This document shows, piece by piece, positions 43,533 through 63,966 of a DNA stretch of 64,000 nucleotides. The notes under the pieces are model-generated. The model was not told where the DNA came from and did not search any database. It saw only the letters and a program-made list of their open reading frames with translations. This DNA is from Rhodothermales bacterium (GTDB lineage Bacteria; Bacteroidota; Rhodothermia; Rhodothermales; UBA10348), in contig JANJTM010000071.1 in NCBI GenBank assembly GCA_024711125.1, positions 1 to 64,000 of the forward strand, read 5' to 3'. Position numbers and translations under genes: made by a program. How positions within the stretch are numbered: position 1 is the stretch's first letter; every line of letters begins with the position of its first letter.

Positions 43533-45677
43533 CTAATGGACCTTGAACCCGTCGGTGCCTTCGAACAGGACGACCCGGCGGGTACGGGAGTCGAAAAGCA
43601 GCGTGTCGGCAAGCACGTGCGCCGGCGCTTCGTACGGCGGTCCGTCGGCCACCGTGATGCGAACGACACGCGCGCCCGGCTCCACCGGCAGGGTTTCGAC
43701 CGCGATCGACGAACCGTCGCCGAACAGACCGCCCGGTTCGTAGGTCCTCTCGAGTACGTTAAGGCCGTCGACGGTTACCGAAAGCCGTACGGAATGGCGC
43801 CCCCTGTCGACCGATCGCGGGCGGCGCATGTGCGGAAGCACGTCCGAATCGTCGACCTCCTCCCCCGACTCAATGATGCGCCCGGCGTGCTTGAACGACA
43901 CCACCAGCGCCGGGCCGTCGGAACCGCGAGCCGGGAGCGGAAGATCAGACCCGGCCCAGGTAACGACGGCCAGGAGGACGGCCACCGTGACCGCGGCAGC
44001 GATCCGGGCCCCCGCGCCGAGTGGCCGATCCACGGCACCTGAGACCGCCCGGTCGTGAAGGCCCGCCCGGAACGAAGCCGCCTCCCGCGCCATCCGCCGG
44101 ATGGAGCCCGAATCCGGCCGCAGGTAGCGGACGCGCGCCGGATCGACCTGGTCGATGCGCAGCTTCGGACTGCGGCGCCCTGACAGGCGTTCGGCGGTCG
44201 TGTCGGCACCCTCCCGGCACGGTGCGTCCTGTCCGCACCCGACGATCAGAACCCCCGGCGCCCCATGCCGCAGGGCGCGCTCCACGGTCAGCATGTGTAC
44301 CCAACCCGCGCACGGCACGGGAAGCACACGGAAACCAGGCAATTCGGCGCACGAGCCGTCGGCCTCCACACGGAGACGACCGGCAGCGGATGCTCCGCAG
44401 ACGAACGCCACGCACGGGTTCTCCACGCCCTCCCCTGCCCCTGGCCCACGCGTCTGCACCGTCGTCCCCCCGGGGTCGGCGGCATGGTTCACCCACTTCC
44501 GCACGTCCAGCACGGGCAGGCGCGCGTTGTCGATCGCGGTGGAATCGCAGGAACCGACGCAGATTCCGCACCCCGTGCAACGGTCCGGGTCGATGAACGC
44601 CACGAACCCGCTCTCGCGCCCTTCCGACGGAGCCGGGAGCAGCGAAATCGCACCGAAGGGGCAATCCTTCCAGCATTGGGTGCAGCCGTTGCACCGCGCG
44701 CCGTCCACGACCGACGACACGACCCGGCGACGCGGCAGGAGCCACGGGACCCCATAGAAGACGATGGTCGCGAGCCCGAGGGCGATCCAGAGGGCTCCGC
44801 CCGACAGGCGCTCGATTACGAAGAGCGGTCCCAGGTACCAGTGATCGCCCGTGATGTCCCGCGCTGCGGCCTGCATGGCCGCCGGCTCGGCCGAGAGGGC
44901 CGGCTCTATGACCGAGAGCAGAACGAGCGTGCCGAGAAGCCAGGCGGTCAACGTCTTTCCGGCCAGGAACTTCGAGCGATCCACGCGCAGGATGTGCACC
45001 CACAGGAAGATGCCCATCGCCATGGGAATCAGCATGTGGATGAAGAACACCAGGAAGAACAGCAGCGAATTGACCGCCTCGTCGACGAGGAACGATCGCG
45101 CGATGGGGTCCGGGAAGATCGGAAGCACGTCGAGGAAGCGGGCCGTGGCCAGCGCGACGCGTTGCGCACGTTCGTCCCAGACCAGCCAGTACCCGGTCCA
45201 CCCGTCCAGCCAGAGCAGCCCGACGAGCAGCACCCCGGAGGTCCAGGCCAGCCACCGGGCGCCGGCGAATCTCCTCGTGGCGAGCGTCTGCAGGCCGTGC
45301 AGCAACACGAACGCCATGCACAGATCCGAACTGTACCGGTGCAGCGAGCGAAGGAGCTGCGGAAGGAACGAAAGCCCCTCGAGCGAGGCGTGGGCGTTCC
45401 CGACGCTCGCCCGATACCAGAACAGCAGCAGGATGCCGGTCACGAGCGCCACGAGGAACGACGTGTTGGCGACCGCCCCGGCCCGTGCAAACGGGTTCTC
45501 GCCCTCGCGCAGGAAGCGGGAGGCCCCGTTGGTCAGGCCGGCCAGCAGGCGTTCCAACGCACGCAGCACGGCCCCGCCGTGCGCTTCGGGGTCCGGGCGC
45601 GCCCTGTCGACCGCTCCCGGGACGAGGGAGGGCCGGCGACCGGGAGTGACGAACACCTCCTTCCGATCGCCGGCCAT
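43533..45677 (-). CDS. cytochrome b - 2x[4Fe-4S] - MvhD fusion membrane protein
   Basis: A 714-residue protein joining three redox modules. Residues about 60-315 are a cytochrome b N-terminal domain with both bis-His pairs at the classical 14-residue spacing (His113/His127 and His214/His228). Residues 329-377 hold two [4Fe-4S] motifs (Cys329/332/335/339 and Cys367/370/373/377). Residues about 420-530 resemble MvhD/FlpD, the hydrogenase/heterodisulfide-reductase iron-sulfur subunit, with Cys422, 427, 443, 456, 481 and 487. A last membrane helix (about 555-575) precedes a roughly 130-residue, probably extracytoplasmic beta domain. It would move electrons between cytosolic iron-sulfur partners and membrane hemes or quinones. 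Its stop-start junction overlaps the SCO gene, so it belongs to the oxidase-like cluster. Confidence 0.85.
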   Translation of the reverse strand: MAGDRKEVFVTPGRRPSLVPGAVDRARPDPEAHGGAVLRALERLLAGLTNGASRFLREGENPFARAGAVANTSFLVALVTGILLLFWYRASVGNAHASLEGLSFLPQLLRSLHRYSSDLCMAFVLLHGLQTLATRRFAGARWLAWTSGVLLVGLLWLDGWTGYWLVWDERAQRVALATARFLDVLPIFPDPIARSFLVDEAVNSLLFFLVFFIHMLIPMAMGIFLWVHILRVDRSKFLAGKTLTAWLLGTLVLLSVIEPALSAEPAAMQAAARDITGDHWYLGPLFVIERLSGGALWIALGLATIVFYGVPWLLPRRRVVSSVVDGARCNGCTQCWKDCPFGAISLLPAPSEGRESGFVAFIDPDRCTGCGICVGSCDSTAIDNARLPVLDVRKWVNHAADPGGTTVQTRGPGAGEGVENPCVAFVCGASAAGRLRVEADGSCAELPGFRVLPVPCAGWVHMLTVERALRHGAPGVLIVGCGQDAPCREGADTTAERLSGRRSPKLRIDQVDPARVRYLRPDSGSIRRMAREAASFRAGLHDRAVSGAVDRPLGAGARIAAAVTVAVLLAVVTWAGSDLPLPARGSDGPALVVSFKHAGRIIESGEEVDDSDVLPHMRRPRSVDRGRHSVRLSVTVDGLNVLERTYEPGGLFGDGSSIAVETLPVEPGARVVRITVADGPPYEAPAHVLADTLLFDSRTRRVVLFEGTDGFKVH

Positions 45678-46717
45678 CAGGCGTTGCCCTCTGCGTCAGG
45701 CGTCGGCAGGACCCGTCCGGACCGCGTCGCCCTCCCGCCCTCGCTCCCTCCGCCCGACCGATCGGACCGGGGCGTGACCCCCATCCCGCTTGCCGGCCCG
45801 TCAGCATCGGTCGTGGACTCGTTGATCACCAGCCGCAGTGCCTCGGTCAGCCACGCCTGCTGCAGCGGGCCCAGCGAAAACCGGAACGCGATGCGCCCGT
45901 CCCGGTCGATCACGTGCACGAGATTGGCGTGCTCGATCGCGCCGGTTTCCTCGTTGCGCACACGCGCGAAGCCGTACCGGTCGAGAATAGCCTCGACGAC
46001 GGCGGGTTCGCCCGTCACGGAATTCCACGACGGCGCCTCGACCCCGTGCAGGTCGGCCATCATCGCGAGCATTTCGGGGGTATCCTTTCGCGGATCCAGC
46101 GTGATAGCGACCACCGTCACCTGCGCTCTTTCCTCCGGAGACAATTCGGAAAGCGACGTCTTGATCTGCGTGACGATCTGCGGACAGGTGTCGTGACACG
46201 ATGCGTAGACCGCCGTCACCACCACGATCCGCCCCCGCAGATCTGCGAGCCGCAGCGGCTGCGATGCCTGGTTCACCAGTTCGAACGGCTCGGCTTCGAG
46301 CGCGGTGCGGATGGAATCCCCGGGGAATGCGCTGGTATCGGCCGGGGTCGAGGGCGGAAACATTGCCGGAAGCGTGAACCCGAGCGAGGCCGTGGCAAGA
46401 AGCACCAGCGCCGCGAAACGCACCACCCGGCCCCGGATGAAGTGCCAGGCCCAGGCCACCGGCGCCCGCCAGACGACCAGGATGAGACCCGCCACCAGCA
46501 GGGGCTGGACGAGGTACATCCACAGGTAGGCCCACTCGAACGATCCGGTGGCCGCGTCGTACCCGAAACACCAGCGCTTGAAGTCCTCGGCGAACGCGTA
46601 CGCCGCGCCGGCCGACGGCGGTACCAACAGGGTCGAACCCATGAGCACGACCGCCCCCAGCAGCAGCGTCACCGCAGCCACCGGAAATCTCCAGCCTTCG
46701 AAAAAGGAGCGCATCAT
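45677..46717 (-). CDS. SCO1/SenC-type copper chaperone with N-terminal membrane domain
   Basis: A 346-residue protein. Residues about 10-120 hold three hydrophobic segments not usual in SCO proteins (which have one anchor). Residues about 125-295 are SCO/thioredoxin-like with the copper motif Cys174-HDT-Cys178 and the distant His in AIEHANLVHVID. A Gly/Ser-rich tail follows. SCO proteins deliver copper to the CuA site of subunit II and act as thiol reductants. The gene lies between subunit I and the cytochrome b fusion on one strand, and its stop overlaps the next start (TGATG), so it is part of the operon. Confidence 0.88.
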   Translation of the reverse strand: MMRSFFEGWRFPVAAVTLLLGAVVLMGSTLLVPPSAGAAYAFAEDFKRWCFGYDAATGSFEWAYLWMYLVQPLLVAGLILVVWRAPVAWAWHFIRGRVVRFAALVLLATASLGFTLPAMFPPSTPADTSAFPGDSIRTALEAEPFELVNQASQPLRLADLRGRIVVVTAVYASCHDTCPQIVTQIKTSLSELSPEERAQVTVVAITLDPRKDTPEMLAMMADLHGVEAPSWNSVTGEPAVVEAILDRYGFARVRNEETGAIEHANLVHVIDRDGRIAFRFSLGPLQQAWLTEALRLVINESTTDADGPASGMGVTPRSDRSGGGSEGGRATRSGRVLPTPDAEGNA

Positions 46718-46798: not shown

Positions 46799-48517
46799 TC
46801 AGCGCACCGGCCACACGTCGGTGAGCGCCATCCAGTTGGCGAAGTAGTACACGACGAACGCGAGCAGCAGCACGAACACCAGCGTCAACGTACCGGGCGT
46901 GCGGTGCGACTGCTTCACGTACGCCTCGTCACGCAGGTTGTATATGGCCACGTTCTGCGCCATCGCCTCGGGCGACTGCCAGAAATGCATCGGGGACCCT
47001 GCGTTCGACCTGCCGAAAAACACGGCGGCGACGACGAGCAGGATGAAGAGCAGCGCGCCCAGGAACGCGATCGTTCCGCCCACACCCACCACGCCGAGCA
47101 TGAAGTGGGCACCCGCGTCAAAACCGGCCGGGATGTTGGCGCCCGTGAAATCCACGTCCCAATGCCGGCGGGGCACTCCGTAGGAGCCGGCGAAGGACAT
47201 TCCGATCGACATGATCACGATCCCCGCGGCGAACACGTACGGCTGGATACGGCAGAGCCGCCGCAGGGTGAACTCCTTCTGGAAGAGCAGCGGAACCACG
47301 TAGTAGGTCAGCCCCATGAACGCCAGCGTCGTGCCGCCAACGACGGTCGCGTGGAAGTGGCCCGGGATACGCAACGTGTTGTGCGCGATGATGTTGATCT
47401 GCTCGGTGCCGAGCGTCACGCCGGTGATCCCGCCGATGAACCCGAAGATGATCATCGAGAGCGCGGTCGAAGAGAAACCCGGATCGTGCCAGGGAGCCTT
47501 GGCAAGCCACGTGAAGAGTCCTTTCGTATGCCCCTTGAGGCGCAGGGCCACCTCCATCGACGAGGGGATCGTAAACGCGTGCACGAGCGACGCCAGGACG
47601 GCGAGGTACATCACGTAGGAGGTGTTCCAGATCTTCCACGAGGCCGTCAGCCCGGGGTCCACGAGGAGGTGGTGCGCGCTGGCCACGTTGATGAACAGGA
47701 TGTAGAGCACGAACGCCCCGCGCGACACGGTCTCGTTGATGGGCTTGGCGCCGGTCGTAAGGGTCGCGAGGAAGTACCAGATGGCGACCATCGCACACAG
47801 GTTCACCTGCTGCGCGGGGTGGCCGAGGCCCCACCACATGAGCCTGTACCATCCCGGGTCGGGCTCGGGCGTCCATCCGAGCGACCACGTGAGGGTCGGA
47901 ATGAGCGCGATCGCCCCGTGCGCGAGCGTGAATACTCCGATGATCGCCGCCGCCAGCGCGCCGAACGTCACGAGGGGCATCGAGCCCTCGTACGTCTTCT
48001 GCCGCATCGCCTGGTAGAGTGTCACGAAGAACAGGATGATGCCGGTGAGCGCCCCGACCGCGACCAGGATCATGCCGAGGTAGAACAGCGGATGCGCCAT
48101 CAGCGGCGGGTACGACGTCATCAGCACGTCGCCCTTCCCGACCAGGATGATCCAGTCCGTGATCAGCGCGCCGGCCAGCATGAGCCCGAGGGACAGCCAA
48201 GCGACGGGTTTCGAGGCCAGCCGGGCGTTGAGCAGCGTGGTGCAGCAGAAATACAGGACCGCCACTTCGAAGAAGAGGATCCAGAAAATCAGCATGTTGA
48301 TGCCGTGCAACGTCAGGATGCGGTAGTACCAGACGTCATTCAGCAGGTGCACGGCCGACCAGCGGGTAAGCGCGAGCAGCAGGGCCGCGATCGCGCCGAC
48401 GAGCAGGAAGACGACCGCCGCGACCGCGTTGGCGCGGATGAAGAACTGCGCCCTGAGGCAGACCGTCAGCCCCGTCGAGGGGCAGGTCCGCGATTCGCCG
48501 GTGAGGAAATTGCCCAT
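46799..48517 (-). CDS. heme-copper oxidase subunit I, Tyr-to-Gln active site (possible NO reductase)
   Basis: A 572-residue integral membrane protein with twelve or more helices. All six metal-binding His are present: His71 (LHGIN) and His389 for the low-spin heme, His387 or His379 region (IAHNTLRIPGHFHATV) for the high-spin heme, and His233, His282, His283 (GLGHPAQQVN, SAHHLLVD) for CuB. In oxygen reductases of the A and B types the residue four after the first CuB His is the crosslinked Tyr (HPEVY-like); here it is Gln237. The C-type alternative Tyr position would need checking. Subunit II, SCO and a small subunit are encoded next to it. Either a divergent oxidase or a member of the NO-reducing heme-copper families (such as eNOR) is possible. 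Confidence 0.88.
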   Translation of the reverse strand: MGNFLTGESRTCPSTGLTVCLRAQFFIRANAVAAVVFLLVGAIAALLLALTRWSAVHLLNDVWYYRILTLHGINMLIFWILFFEVAVLYFCCTTLLNARLASKPVAWLSLGLMLAGALITDWIILVGKGDVLMTSYPPLMAHPLFYLGMILVAVGALTGIILFFVTLYQAMRQKTYEGSMPLVTFGALAAAIIGVFTLAHGAIALIPTLTWSLGWTPEPDPGWYRLMWWGLGHPAQQVNLCAMVAIWYFLATLTTGAKPINETVSRGAFVLYILFINVASAHHLLVDPGLTASWKIWNTSYVMYLAVLASLVHAFTIPSSMEVALRLKGHTKGLFTWLAKAPWHDPGFSSTALSMIIFGFIGGITGVTLGTEQINIIAHNTLRIPGHFHATVVGGTTLAFMGLTYYVVPLLFQKEFTLRRLCRIQPYVFAAGIVIMSIGMSFAGSYGVPRRHWDVDFTGANIPAGFDAGAHFMLGVVGVGGTIAFLGALLFILLVVAAVFFGRSNAGSPMHFWQSPEAMAQNVAIYNLRDEAYVKQSHRTPGTLTLVFVLLLAFVVYYFANWMALTDVWPVR

Positions 48518-48523
48518 GGCGCG

Positions 48524-49048
48524 TTACTCCACGATGATGCGGCCGGTCATCATGTGATGGCCGATTCCGCAGAATTCGTTGCACACGATGCTGAATTCGC
48601 CGGTCGTCGTCGGGGTGAGCGTCAGCACGTGGTCGTACCCCGGAAGGACCTGGAAATTCATGTTCATCGGAAGGAGCGAGAGTCCGTGCTGGATGTCGTA
48701 CGACGACACGTGAAGCCGGTACGTCTGGTCCTTCTTCAGCTTCAGCACGGGAAACCAGCGCCACATCTGGCCCATCAGGTAGATGTCGCTGCCCGGTGCG
48801 GGCTCTGCGATGGGCACTCCGTTCACTTCCCCCGCCTTGTTGGCGTTCGTGAACGCCATCACGCGGTCCAGGAAGGCCTCCTGTTCGACGCGGTACGATT
48901 CGCCGGTCGAATTCTGCTTGCCCTTGAAATGCGCGTACGGCATCGCGGCGAACAGCACCAGACACCAGACGAAGCCGGCGCCGATCCAGAGGCGTTCGCT
49001 CCCCCCGGGAGCCTGGAACCACCCGTCGGGCGGCGGATGAATGCTCAT
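48524..49048 (-). CDS. heme-copper oxidase subunit II with CuA site
   Basis: A 174-residue protein with one N-terminal membrane helix (about 19-37) and a cupredoxin domain. The dinuclear CuA ligands are complete: His121, Cys156, Glu158, Cys160, His164 and Met167 (motif CNEFCGIGHHMM). The length is that of short B-type (ba3-like) subunits II, and no fused cytochrome c is present, so the electron donor should be a separate cytochrome c or cupredoxin. It lies 6 bp upstream of subunit I. CuA speaks for cytochrome c rather than quinol as donor. Confidence 0.92.
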   Translation of the reverse strand: MSIHPPPDGWFQAPGGSERLWIGAGFVWCLVLFAAMPYAHFKGKQNSTGESYRVEQEAFLDRVMAFTNANKAGEVNGVPIAEPAPGSDIYLMGQMWRWFPVLKLKKDQTYRLHVSSYDIQHGLSLLPMNMNFQVLPGYDHVLTLTPTTTGEFSIVCNEFCGIGHHMMTGRIIVE

Positions 49049-49057
49049 GATCTCACC

Positions 49058-49240
49058 TCAGGGAAGCTGTGCCGGGGGCATCGAGAGGATCTCGATCCAT
49101 CCCCAGACCGTGTAGGACAGGAAGGGGATCAGGAAACCCAGGGCGAGCAGAAGCCATGGGTTGTCCATCAGGCGTTGTAGCGGGTGTTTCCTGGGTGCGT
49201 CCATGTCGATCGGGTCGTTGGGTCCGGGTAGACTCGGCAT
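49058..49240 (-). CDS. 60-residue single-helix protein, probable small oxidase subunit
   Basis: MPSLPGPNDP... followed by one membrane helix (NPWLLLALGFLIPFLSYTVWGW) and a short polar tail. Nine bases separate its stop from the subunit II start, so it opens the cluster. Size, single helix and position fit subunit IIa of ba3-type oxidases. The Met at 49240 was chosen because a -7 element lies just upstream; an in-frame Met at 49204 would give 48 residues. Confidence 0.75.
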   Translation of the reverse strand: MPSLPGPNDPIDMDAPRKHPLQRLMDNPWLLLALGFLIPFLSYTVWGWIEILSMPPAQLP

Positions 49241-49258: not shown

Positions 49259-49266
49259 CAGAATTA
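49259..49266 (-). promoter_or_regulatory. -7 element TAATTCTG of the oxidase-like cluster
   Basis: Read on the minus strand it is one base off TAnnTTTG, 19-26 bp before the ATG at 49240. The AT-rich patch just upstream (49266-49310) is unusual for this genome and could hold a regulator site. Confidence 0.45.
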
Positions 49267-49472
49267 CGATAGACGACTCTATTGTAGTATTCATACTCCA
49301 AAAGCGCAAGCACCCTACACGCGTCCCCGTCAATTCCGGAAGCCCATGGACCTTCGCCTCGAACCCGCTATCTTCAGCCGCCCAATCCGCATGGGACAAC
49401 GGCCGCAGCGACGTGCCGCGCGTCCGCGTGCCCGTGGCGTCGGCACAATCACCCGGAACCCTACCTGCCCCC

Positions 49473-62160: not shown

Positions 62161-63966
62161 CTACTTGACGAGCGTGAGCAGACGGGTCTGGCTGACGCCG
62201 CCGGCCGTGAGACGGTACAGGTACGTGCCGCTCGGCAGACCGGCCGCCGCCGACCACGTGACCGAGTGCGAGCCCGCCTCCATCGGCCGATCGACGAGCA
62301 CCGCGACTTCACGTCCTGTCACGTCGAACACCGCGAGACGCACCTGGCCGGCCTCGGGCACCGCGAAGTGGATCGAGGTGGACGGATTGAACGGGTTCGG
62401 GTAGTTCTGCTCGAGCGCGAAGCCCGCGGGCAGGACGTCCTCGTCGGCGACGGCGTGGAACACGACGCCGTCGAAGCCCTTCGGCGCGACGCCCGGGTCG
62501 TTCCAGGTCGAGAAGAGCACGTATCGGCCGTCACTCGAGTAGGCCGGGTCGTATTCGCCGCCCGCGGGGTTTCCGAAGAGCACGGAAGGCGTTCCGCCCG
62601 TCGCCGCCACCGTCCAGAGGTCGAAGTTCCAGTCGCCATGGCCCGGGTTGCCCTGATACACGACCCGACGGCTGTTGTTGGACCACGTAGCGTTGCCGGG
62701 GTAGGCGTCCGGCGTCCACGGGGTAAGCTGGACCGGCTGGCCCTTGGGCGTTCCGTCCTTGTTCACGTCGACGGCGAAGATGGCCGTTCCCGGCACGCTG
62801 CCGTCGTAGCGTCCGAAGGCGATGGACTGCCCGTTCGGCGACCAGACCGGACCTTCGCCGGCCGCGGCCACGATCGTCTCGGCCCCGGTGGCTACGTCCA
62901 TCGTGCGGATGGAGCCGTCGCTGATGTCCTGGAAAACGACCCGCTTCGAGTCGTTCGACCAGTCCGCGTTGAGGGCGCCCGCCCGCAGCACGGTGGCCGA
63001 TCCCGCATTGCTGCCCTTGACCACGGCGAGGTACAGCGTGGCGTCACCGACCGCGCCGCGATCGAAGACCAGGAAGCGGCCGTTGGGGGAGAACCGGGCG
63101 TCGTTGCCGCCTTCGCCGTACTCGAGGGGGGTGCTCGTTCCGGTCGCGACATCGGTCAGGGCCAGACGATGCGTGTAATACGGCTGGAAGGTGACGACGT
63201 CGTGGACGATGGTCTTGCCGTCGTTGGACATCGCGGCGCCGTACTCCTCGCTGTCGTAGAGCGACGTCACGCGTCGCACTTCGCCGGACTTCGTGTCCAC
63301 CATGAAGAGGTCGGTGCTGGGCTTGGGAGTGGTCGGACGGCTGAAATGGATGTTGTCCACGTACACCGTCATTCCGAACCCTTCGATCAGGACCTGGGAG
63401 ATCGACGAGAGCGTCATCGGAAGCCCGGAGCCCGCGAAGACGAAGTCGCTGAGGGGGATGTCGATCGAGGTCCACGCGCCGGGCGTGAGGTAATCGATCG
63501 GAACCACGGCCTCCTGGTCGTCGAACGGCCAGTTGGCCGGGTAGGCCCCGCCGTCGCCGTACGCGGCGTTCGGACCGAAGTCCACGAGCTTGATCGCGAA
63601 GCCGTTCGTCGGCGCCGCCGCGGTCCACACGTCCATGTGGAAATGGGTCATGGCGCTCGCGTCGAAACCGGGATAGGCCATCTGCAGGGCCGCGAAGCCG
63701 CCGCCCTGGTAGATCGAGTAGACGAGCGACTGGTCGCCGCCGGGCCAGAAGTCGCTGACGTCGGCGTCGTCCCACCCGGTCGAGAACTCGGCGACCGGCA
63801 CGTTGCCGTAGGCGCCGGAGAAGATCGAGATGACGTCGGCCGGATGCGCCGTCGGCAGCGGCGCGGCCTCGGTCGGAGACTGGGCCACCGCGCCGGTCGG
63901 CACGACGGCGAGCAGCAGCACCACCGTCAGCGCGTGCGGTGCAAGGGTGTGTAGTCGTTGTTTCAT
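62161..63966 (-). CDS. secreted TolB-like propeller protein with CBM-like domain and T9SS sorting domain
   Basis: A 601-residue protein with signal peptide (about 1-29). Residues about 45-210 form a jelly-roll domain like those that bind carbohydrates (MTHFHMDVWTAAAP, WTSIDIPLSDFVFAG, MTVYVDNIHFSRP). Residues about 218-510 are PD40/TolB propeller blades (SPNGRFLVFDRGA, SNDSKRVVFQDISDG, SPNGQSIAFGRYDGS, SSDGRYVLFSTWND). The C-terminus (EQNYPNPFNPSTS ... LPSGTYLYRLTAGG, ending LLTLVK) is a T9SS type A sorting domain. Presumably a surface or secreted binding protein. The upstream regulatory region is cut by the window end. Confidence 0.85.
   Translation of the reverse strand: MKQRLHTLAPHALTVVLLLAVVPTGAVAQSPTEAAPLPTAHPADVISIFSGAYGNVPVAEFSTGWDDADVSDFWPGGDQSLVYSIYQGGGFAALQMAYPGFDASAMTHFHMDVWTAAAPTNGFAIKLVDFGPNAAYGDGGAYPANWPFDDQEAVVPIDYLTPGAWTSIDIPLSDFVFAGSGLPMTLSSISQVLIEGFGMTVYVDNIHFSRPTTPKPSTDLFMVDTKSGEVRRVTSLYDSEEYGAAMSNDGKTIVHDVVTFQPYYTHRLALTDVATGTSTPLEYGEGGNDARFSPNGRFLVFDRGAVGDATLYLAVVKGSNAGSATVLRAGALNADWSNDSKRVVFQDISDGSIRTMDVATGAETIVAAAGEGPVWSPNGQSIAFGRYDGSVPGTAIFAVDVNKDGTPKGQPVQLTPWTPDAYPGNATWSNNSRRVVYQGNPGHGDWNFDLWTVAATGGTPSVLFGNPAGGEYDPAYSSDGRYVLFSTWNDPGVAPKGFDGVVFHAVADEDVLPAGFALEQNYPNPFNPSTSIHFAVPEAGQVRLAVFDVTGREVAVLVDRPMEAGSHSVTWSAAAGLPSGTYLYRLTAGGVSQTRLLTLVK

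Follow-up and report, generated by a model that had tools for sequence, protein, structure and literature searches.

A cytochrome b predicted to carry a ferredoxin-FlpD module within one of its cytoplasmic loops is encoded in the window, the 64,000-nucleotide stretch of a Rhodothermales contig analysed here. This fusion protein is in nearly all cases encoded next to a single type of probable NO reductase, and its likeliest role is accordingly in the respiration of nitric oxide, not of oxygen. Because its metal ligands are conserved, its core is of the bc type and its linkage is strict, we give about an even chance to the reading that the fusion is a dedicated membrane electron-transfer subunit of that NO reductase, whose clade appears to be sister to eNOR.

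Architecture of the fusion protein and its gene cassette

The fusion is a single open reading frame (ORF), and the same single ORF recurs in more than 30 other genomes, ruling out mis-assembly or a chance origin. Pfam profiles place PF00033 (Cytochrome_B) at residues 66-232 (3e-15), two Fer4 motifs at residues 328-383 and FlpD (PF02662) at residues 423-540 (4e-11), with helices A-D also matching cytochrome b6 at 4e-30 in hmmsearch. The heme ligands form two pairs in helices B and D, H113/H127 and H214/H228, with 13 residues between the members of each pair. The four heme histidines and eight ferredoxin cysteines are invariant in all family members covering them. An earlier note on this DNA had read two b-heme histidine pairs and two [4Fe-4S] motifs in one polypeptide, and the 714-residue ORF with its invariant ligands bears this out.

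Table 1. Features of the cassette in the window (coordinates within the 64,000-nucleotide stretch)
Feature	Position	Strand	Remarks
Cytochrome b-ferredoxin-FlpD fusion, 714 aa	43533..45677	-	single ORF, 714 codons
Cytochrome b helices A-D, residues 46-236; putative heme bL/bH ligands H113, H127, H214, H228	44970..45542	-	PF00033, hmmsearch
Helices E and F of cytochrome b with ef loop, residues 241-313; PEWY-like motif holding invariant D278	44739..44957	-	hhalign, VIA-align
Two [4Fe-4S] ferredoxin motifs, residues 322-383, predicted cytoplasmic F-G loop	44529..44714	-	8 Cys invariant
FlpD/MvhD-like domain, residues 423-540	44058..44411	-	only C427, C456 family-invariant
Transmembrane helix G, residues 555-577	43947..44015	-	model aligned to bovine cytochrome b
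Predicted periplasmic C-terminal beta-sandwich, residues 590-714, invariant H616	43536..43910	-	model and alignment
SCO1/SenC copper chaperone, N-terminal TM segments, CxxxC + His	45677..46717	-	PF02630
Heme-copper subunit I, eNOR-like clade, Gln237	46799..48517	-	all heme/CuB His present
CuA subunit II	48524..49048	-	six CuA ligands invariant 20/20
Small single-TM subunit, ~60 aa, start uncertain	49058..49240	-	conserved upstream of subunit II across loci
Inverted repeat TACAATAGAGTCGTCTATCGTA (AATAGA..TCTAT), possible regulator site	49265..49286	.	upstream of cassette

The cytochrome b part continues beyond the four-helix Pfam match, with helices E-F and G recovered by profile and structure comparison. 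A five-model AlphaFold2 prediction built from 18 homologues reached a pLDDT of 81 and a pTM of 0.80, and its membrane part matches bc-complex cytochrome b over ~255 residues (Z 21.6, rmsd 2.9 Å; VIA-align). The match to bovine cytochrome b extends to model residue 585, equivalent to bovine residue 344, and residues 241-313 are therefore assigned to helices E and F and residues 555-577 to helix G. Profile alignment by hhalign against the bc-type cytochrome b of relatives covers 257 columns through the ef loop at 99.7% probability. The core is thus predicted to be a bc1/b6f-type cytochrome b with helices A-G and two membrane-spanning b hemes. At the Qo position the PEWY motif is absent from the fusion, its place being taken by xD(W/F/H)x(Y/F) with D278 invariant in 18/18 sequences.

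In the model, the ferredoxin-FlpD module sits inside the cytoplasmic F-G loop, so the fusion is not predicted to be a head-to-tail chain. The cytochrome b, ferredoxin and MvhD domains named in the earlier note are all found, but their serial arrangement gives way to an Fe-S/FlpD insertion between helices F and G. The modelled helix G is followed by a periplasmic beta domain that replaces helix H, a domain absent from the earlier note. This C-terminal domain matched no Pfam family and no PDB sequence, and its structural matches are confined to generic beta-sandwich folds, with Z up to 8.9 over 90 residues, so the evidence supports neither a relation to CcoG nor a novel fold. It also has no similarity to the third subunit of classic eNOR. 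On the basis of the AlphaFold2 model and the bc1 fold, the cytosolic clusters would lie close to heme bH and the periplasmic end close to CuA.

The cassette genes follow the order small TM subunit, subunit II, subunit I, SCO and fusion on the minus strand, with the SCO stop overlapping the fusion start codon by 1 nt. Residues C174, C178 and H263 of SCO are invariant. Wherever a fusion locus has sufficient contig this order recurs, except on split or truncated contigs.

Several features vary around this core. Half-sites like those of the inverted repeat appear to lie upstream of the L024, L025 and L036 cassettes. A Rrf2-family regulator with three conserved cysteines flanks the cassette in several phyla (L016:9147-9545, L024, L025, L027, L034, L036, L108-L110); none stands next to the cassette of the window. 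Such regulators adjoin many cassettes and also the classic eNOR in L071, a locus that codes for a RIC/YtfE protein as well, and this setting too fits NO chemistry. Many cassettes outside the window's family open with a ~470 aa subunit I paralogue (L024:955-2358, L025:1932-3338, L027, L028, L029, L030, L036, L041, L108-L110, L116-L118, L120). It keeps three heme histidines and GHxxQ, lacks the CuB histidine pair and, in the members tested, matches no Pfam or NCBIfam family; it is possibly a CuB-less heme-copper protein. The gene after the fusion codes for heme O synthase (CtaB) in a Spirochaetia locus (L030:9147-10046) and in several Planctomycetota (L108, L109, L110, L116-L118), a position that suggests a heme O/A-type high-spin heme in the cassette NO reductase. 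Among Planctomycetota, the subunits I of L092-L094 (G291, G262, G132) match the query only to residue ~516, with a stop codon within the match and a C-terminus that differs or is split. The last 38 residues of the L110 subunit I match further downstream, and in the Planctomycetota loci L034, L035, L039 and L040 two neighbouring ORFs (~196 and ~127 aa) share the SCO match.

Genomic linkage and identity of the partner enzyme

Relatives of the fusion occur in five genomes of the window's family (G008, G016, G018, G020, G024), and a profile scan of named genomes detected it in Rhodothermales/Bacteroidota, Calditrichota, Balneolales, Verrucomicrobiota, Spirochaetia and Planctomycetota MAGs. No copy was found in the viral contigs scanned. 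The cassette is present in 32/32 fusion genomes from about six phylum-level lineages, all with the same type of subunit I; this answers positively the earlier note's question of whether the fusion always neighbours that type, and the genetic tie to a CuA-type complex and SCO, which the note had drawn from one locus, holds across phyla. In the opposite direction, the fusion adjoins 20 of the 21 orthologous subunits I that could be tested. In a set of 100 relatives, the six genomes with a subunit I 75-81% identical to that of the window (identical in the window itself) are exactly the six with the fusion, and the fusion is missing from all ten whose subunit I is 42-44% identical. In Planctomycetota, 294 genomes with a subunit I yielded 16 orthologs, 15 of them with enough sequence, and the fusion adjoins 14/15. 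The exception, G151, is the most divergent and encodes subunit I and SCO without the fusion.

Subunit I retains all heme and CuB histidines and carries Gln237 in 20/20 sequences, at the position of the cross-linked Tyr237 of ba3 oxidase. Glutamine at this active-site tyrosine position (Gln323 of the published alignment) is a marker of eNOR (PMC8756737), which, according to PMC11388526, is related to B-family oxidases and has been characterised biochemically as an NO reductase. The classic eNOR of relatives, G042 among them, reads GHG[ST]QQIN, the same GHxxQQxN motif, and is 41-42% identical to cassette subunit I. A quick tree resolved the fusion-linked type (85), classic eNOR (99) and ba3 (100) as three distinct clades, with midpoint rooting and provisional support; cassette subunit I appears to form a clade sister to classic eNOR.

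The gene neighbourhood points the same way. In 7 Planctomycetota the gene immediately downstream of the fusion encodes a cd1 NirS, matching 1bl9 over its full length (3e-183); NirK stands beside the cassette in G008 and G291 and takes the same slot beside classic eNOR in G015 and G019. The fusion-less subunit I locus of G151 lies between nirS and genes for a NirJ-like radical SAM protein and SUMT. Counting NirK, NirS and NosZ only above the curated cut-off, at least one of the three is present in 17/21 cassette genomes. Based on Gln237 and the NirS, NirK and heme-d1 neighbours, the cassette enzyme is most likely an NO reductase, a variant of eNOR, which replaces the terminal oxidase-like partner proposed in the earlier note.

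Within the window's family, NirK occurs in 5/6 fusion hosts versus 6/21 genomes, the numbers being small, and the NosZ counts (3/6 versus 7/21) are uninformative. The window genome itself encodes a clade II NosZ (G000:C24:15854-17653) and neither NirK nor cd1 NirS, and the organism may denitrify only in part, in which case it would draw on NO and N2O from outside. As separate observations, a NirK with a C-terminal cytochrome c domain lies at L017:2964-4502, divergent from the cassette in G008, and the window encodes at 62161-63966 (minus strand) a TolB-like propeller protein with a T9SS sorting domain, which fits a Bacteroidota/Rhodothermota-type host.

Role of the fusion and competing explanations

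As a dedicated redox subunit, the fusion would receive electrons from a cytosolic Fe-S carrier other than Mvh/Hdr, from quinol, or from both, and conduct them via the [4Fe-4S] clusters and b hemes to its periplasmic side, supplying the CuA-type NO reductase there. It would thereby stand in for a Rieske/c1 complex; the cassette holds no gene for a Rieske protein or cytochrome c1/f. NapH/NosR-type proteins serve other N-oxide reductases in a manner analogous to this proposed role. The fusion is not required for NO reduction in principle, because classic eNOR and the G151 subunit I with SCO lack it. The altered PEWY motif and an FlpD domain that appears degenerate in several lineages count against the electron-transfer reading, and the conservation with SCO fits an assembly role equally well.

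Assembly is accordingly the theme of the main rival, a CcoG-like maturation reductase, which takes this place because SCO invariably separates the fusion from subunit I and because the fusion is missing from classic eNOR. Here the [4Fe-4S] clusters and b hemes would relay cytosolic electrons to periplasmic Cu(II) or the SCO disulfide, supporting the loading of CuA (and CuB). CcoG is described as having two [4Fe-4S] clusters and a periplasmic Ig-like domain, being encoded beside its oxidase and reducing Cu(II) (PMC7558416), and CrpH, a heme-dependent membrane protein, supports heme-copper oxidases (PMC13038864), providing two comparable systems. The gene order with its 1-nt SCO/fusion overlap and the periplasmic beta domain with invariant H616 also agree with such a function. 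However, CcoG belongs to another family and lacks a bc-type cytochrome b core, the C-terminal domain of the fusion has no Pfam counterpart, classic eNOR contains the same kinds of copper site without the fusion, and a complete cytochrome b with a Q-site-like region exceeds the needs of a copper reductase. We regard maturation as a possible yet doubtful alternative.

More ambitious is a Rieske-free 'complex III' for NO respiration, which we regard as improbable: the fusion would dock on the CuA NO reductase, oxidise quinol on the P side and share out the electrons to NO and to a cytosolic Fe-S acceptor; run the other way, it would confurcate electrons from the cytosol and from quinol onto NO. 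The related proposal of quinol bifurcation at the P-side PEWY-like site, in which CuA and NO would receive one electron while the b hemes led the second to the cytosolic [4Fe-4S] clusters and on to an acceptor of low potential, is very unlikely. It draws on the bc-type core, whose ef loop holds the invariant D278 at the site of PEWY, on clusters placed on the heme bH side by the predicted topology, on a CuA partner encoded beside the fusion and on NO reduction as a strong driving force; yet there is no Rieske protein, the PEWY glutamate is lost, contact with CuA is hypothetical and the scheme has no known precedent.

The earlier note had suggested a route from cytosolic low-potential iron-sulfur carriers to the respiratory chain; as an MvhD-type entry point, linking hydrogenase or Hdr-like cytosolic complexes to that chain, this reading is likewise very improbable. 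An FlpD domain is indeed detected, the ferredoxin-FlpD order is that of the HdrA2 C-terminus, hydrogenases and another, canonical FlpD occur in Calditrichota hosts, and the window genome encodes a NiFe hydrogenase-family protein. The six cysteines that the note counted in the MvhD-like domain are all present in the protein of the window, yet just C427 and C456 are kept throughout the family: C443 is lost in about half of the members, C481 in Planctomycetota, and C487 in Opitutales, Spirochaetia and Balneolales, and the CCxxC start of solved MvhD is reduced to one cysteine. The MvhD [2Fe-2S] cysteine set is thus not kept in the fusion family, and the FlpD domain appears degenerate in several lineages. 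In four Planctomycetota hosts the PF02662 profile is not reached at all, the fusion is the sole FlpD in 13/17 hosts with any FlpD match, the window genome included, and no HdrA, other Hdr/Mvh, hydrogenase or FrhB genes are among the recurrent neighbours of fusion loci. As the [2Fe-2S] cysteines of FlpD are unconserved and the fusion is mostly the sole FlpD, an MvhD/Hdr link is unlikely to be the general function.

Least credible of all is an O2-reducing terminal oxidase module with the fusion as electron donor, which was rejected on Gln237 and gene context: the closest solved relative of subunit I is a B-type oxidase and all heme/CuB histidines and CuA ligands are present, but an invariant glutamine replaces the cross-linking tyrosine, the neighbours are NirS, NirK and heme-d1 genes, and the window genome has two other PF00115 genes.

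Significance and comparison with known systems

The cassette suggests that an NO reductase of a seemingly undescribed form is widespread, occurring in Rhodothermales and other Bacteroidota, Calditrichota, Balneolales, Verrucomicrobiota, Planctomycetota and Spirochaetota. The product of NO reductase is the greenhouse gas nitrous oxide. Annotation by the COX1 profile alone would label the cassette enzyme a cytochrome c oxidase, and the N2O-forming capacity of these lineages is for that reason likely under-counted. A cytosolic ferredoxin module between helices F and G would link a heme-copper enzyme with the quinone pool and with cytosolic Fe-S electrons in a new way. As far as the literature examined shows, the fusion is a new cytochrome b architecture: apart from one row in Table A3 of PMC8756737, no work treating MvhD/FlpD, cytochrome b and NO reductase jointly was found, the search not extending to Murali 2024 (PMC11214002), where an earlier mention of the clade or operon is possible.

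Among known systems, classic eNOR resembles the cassette in its subunit I, with glutamine at the tyrosine position and all heme/CuB histidines, in its CuA subunit II and small subunit, and in the NirK that adjoins it in relatives. The cassette enzyme differs in its separate clade, at about 41-42% identity, and in having SCO and the fusion where classic eNOR has a third membrane subunit of 256-264 aa. The bc1/b6f cytochrome b shares with the fusion helices A-G, two bis-His b hemes and a PEWY-like ef loop, whereas the fusion contains a 220-residue Fe-S/FlpD insertion in the F-G loop, has a periplasmic beta domain instead of helix H and a changed PEWY motif, and is encoded without the Rieske or cytochrome c1 gene of the bc1/b6f complex.

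CcoG/FixG is likewise a membrane protein with two cytosolic [4Fe-4S] clusters and a TM helix followed by a periplasmic beta domain, encoded beside a heme-copper enzyme, but it has no cytochrome b; by profile, the Fe-S motifs of the fusion match generic Fer4 only and its C-terminal domain has no Pfam match. MvhD/FlpD and the ferredoxin-MvhD tail of HdrA2 share the order of two [4Fe-4S] motifs followed by an FlpD fold, while in the fusion CCxxC is reduced to one cysteine, the later cysteines are unconserved and the module is embedded in cytochrome b. A further counterpart, by tabulated domains, is the Chloroflexi ORF RME88945.1, listed in PMC8756737 (Table A3, tabulated only) with cytochrome b6, DMSOR-beta ferredoxin and FlpD domains, which shares the cytochrome b6, ferredoxin and FlpD combination with the fusion and differs in an additional cytochrome c (C1) domain.
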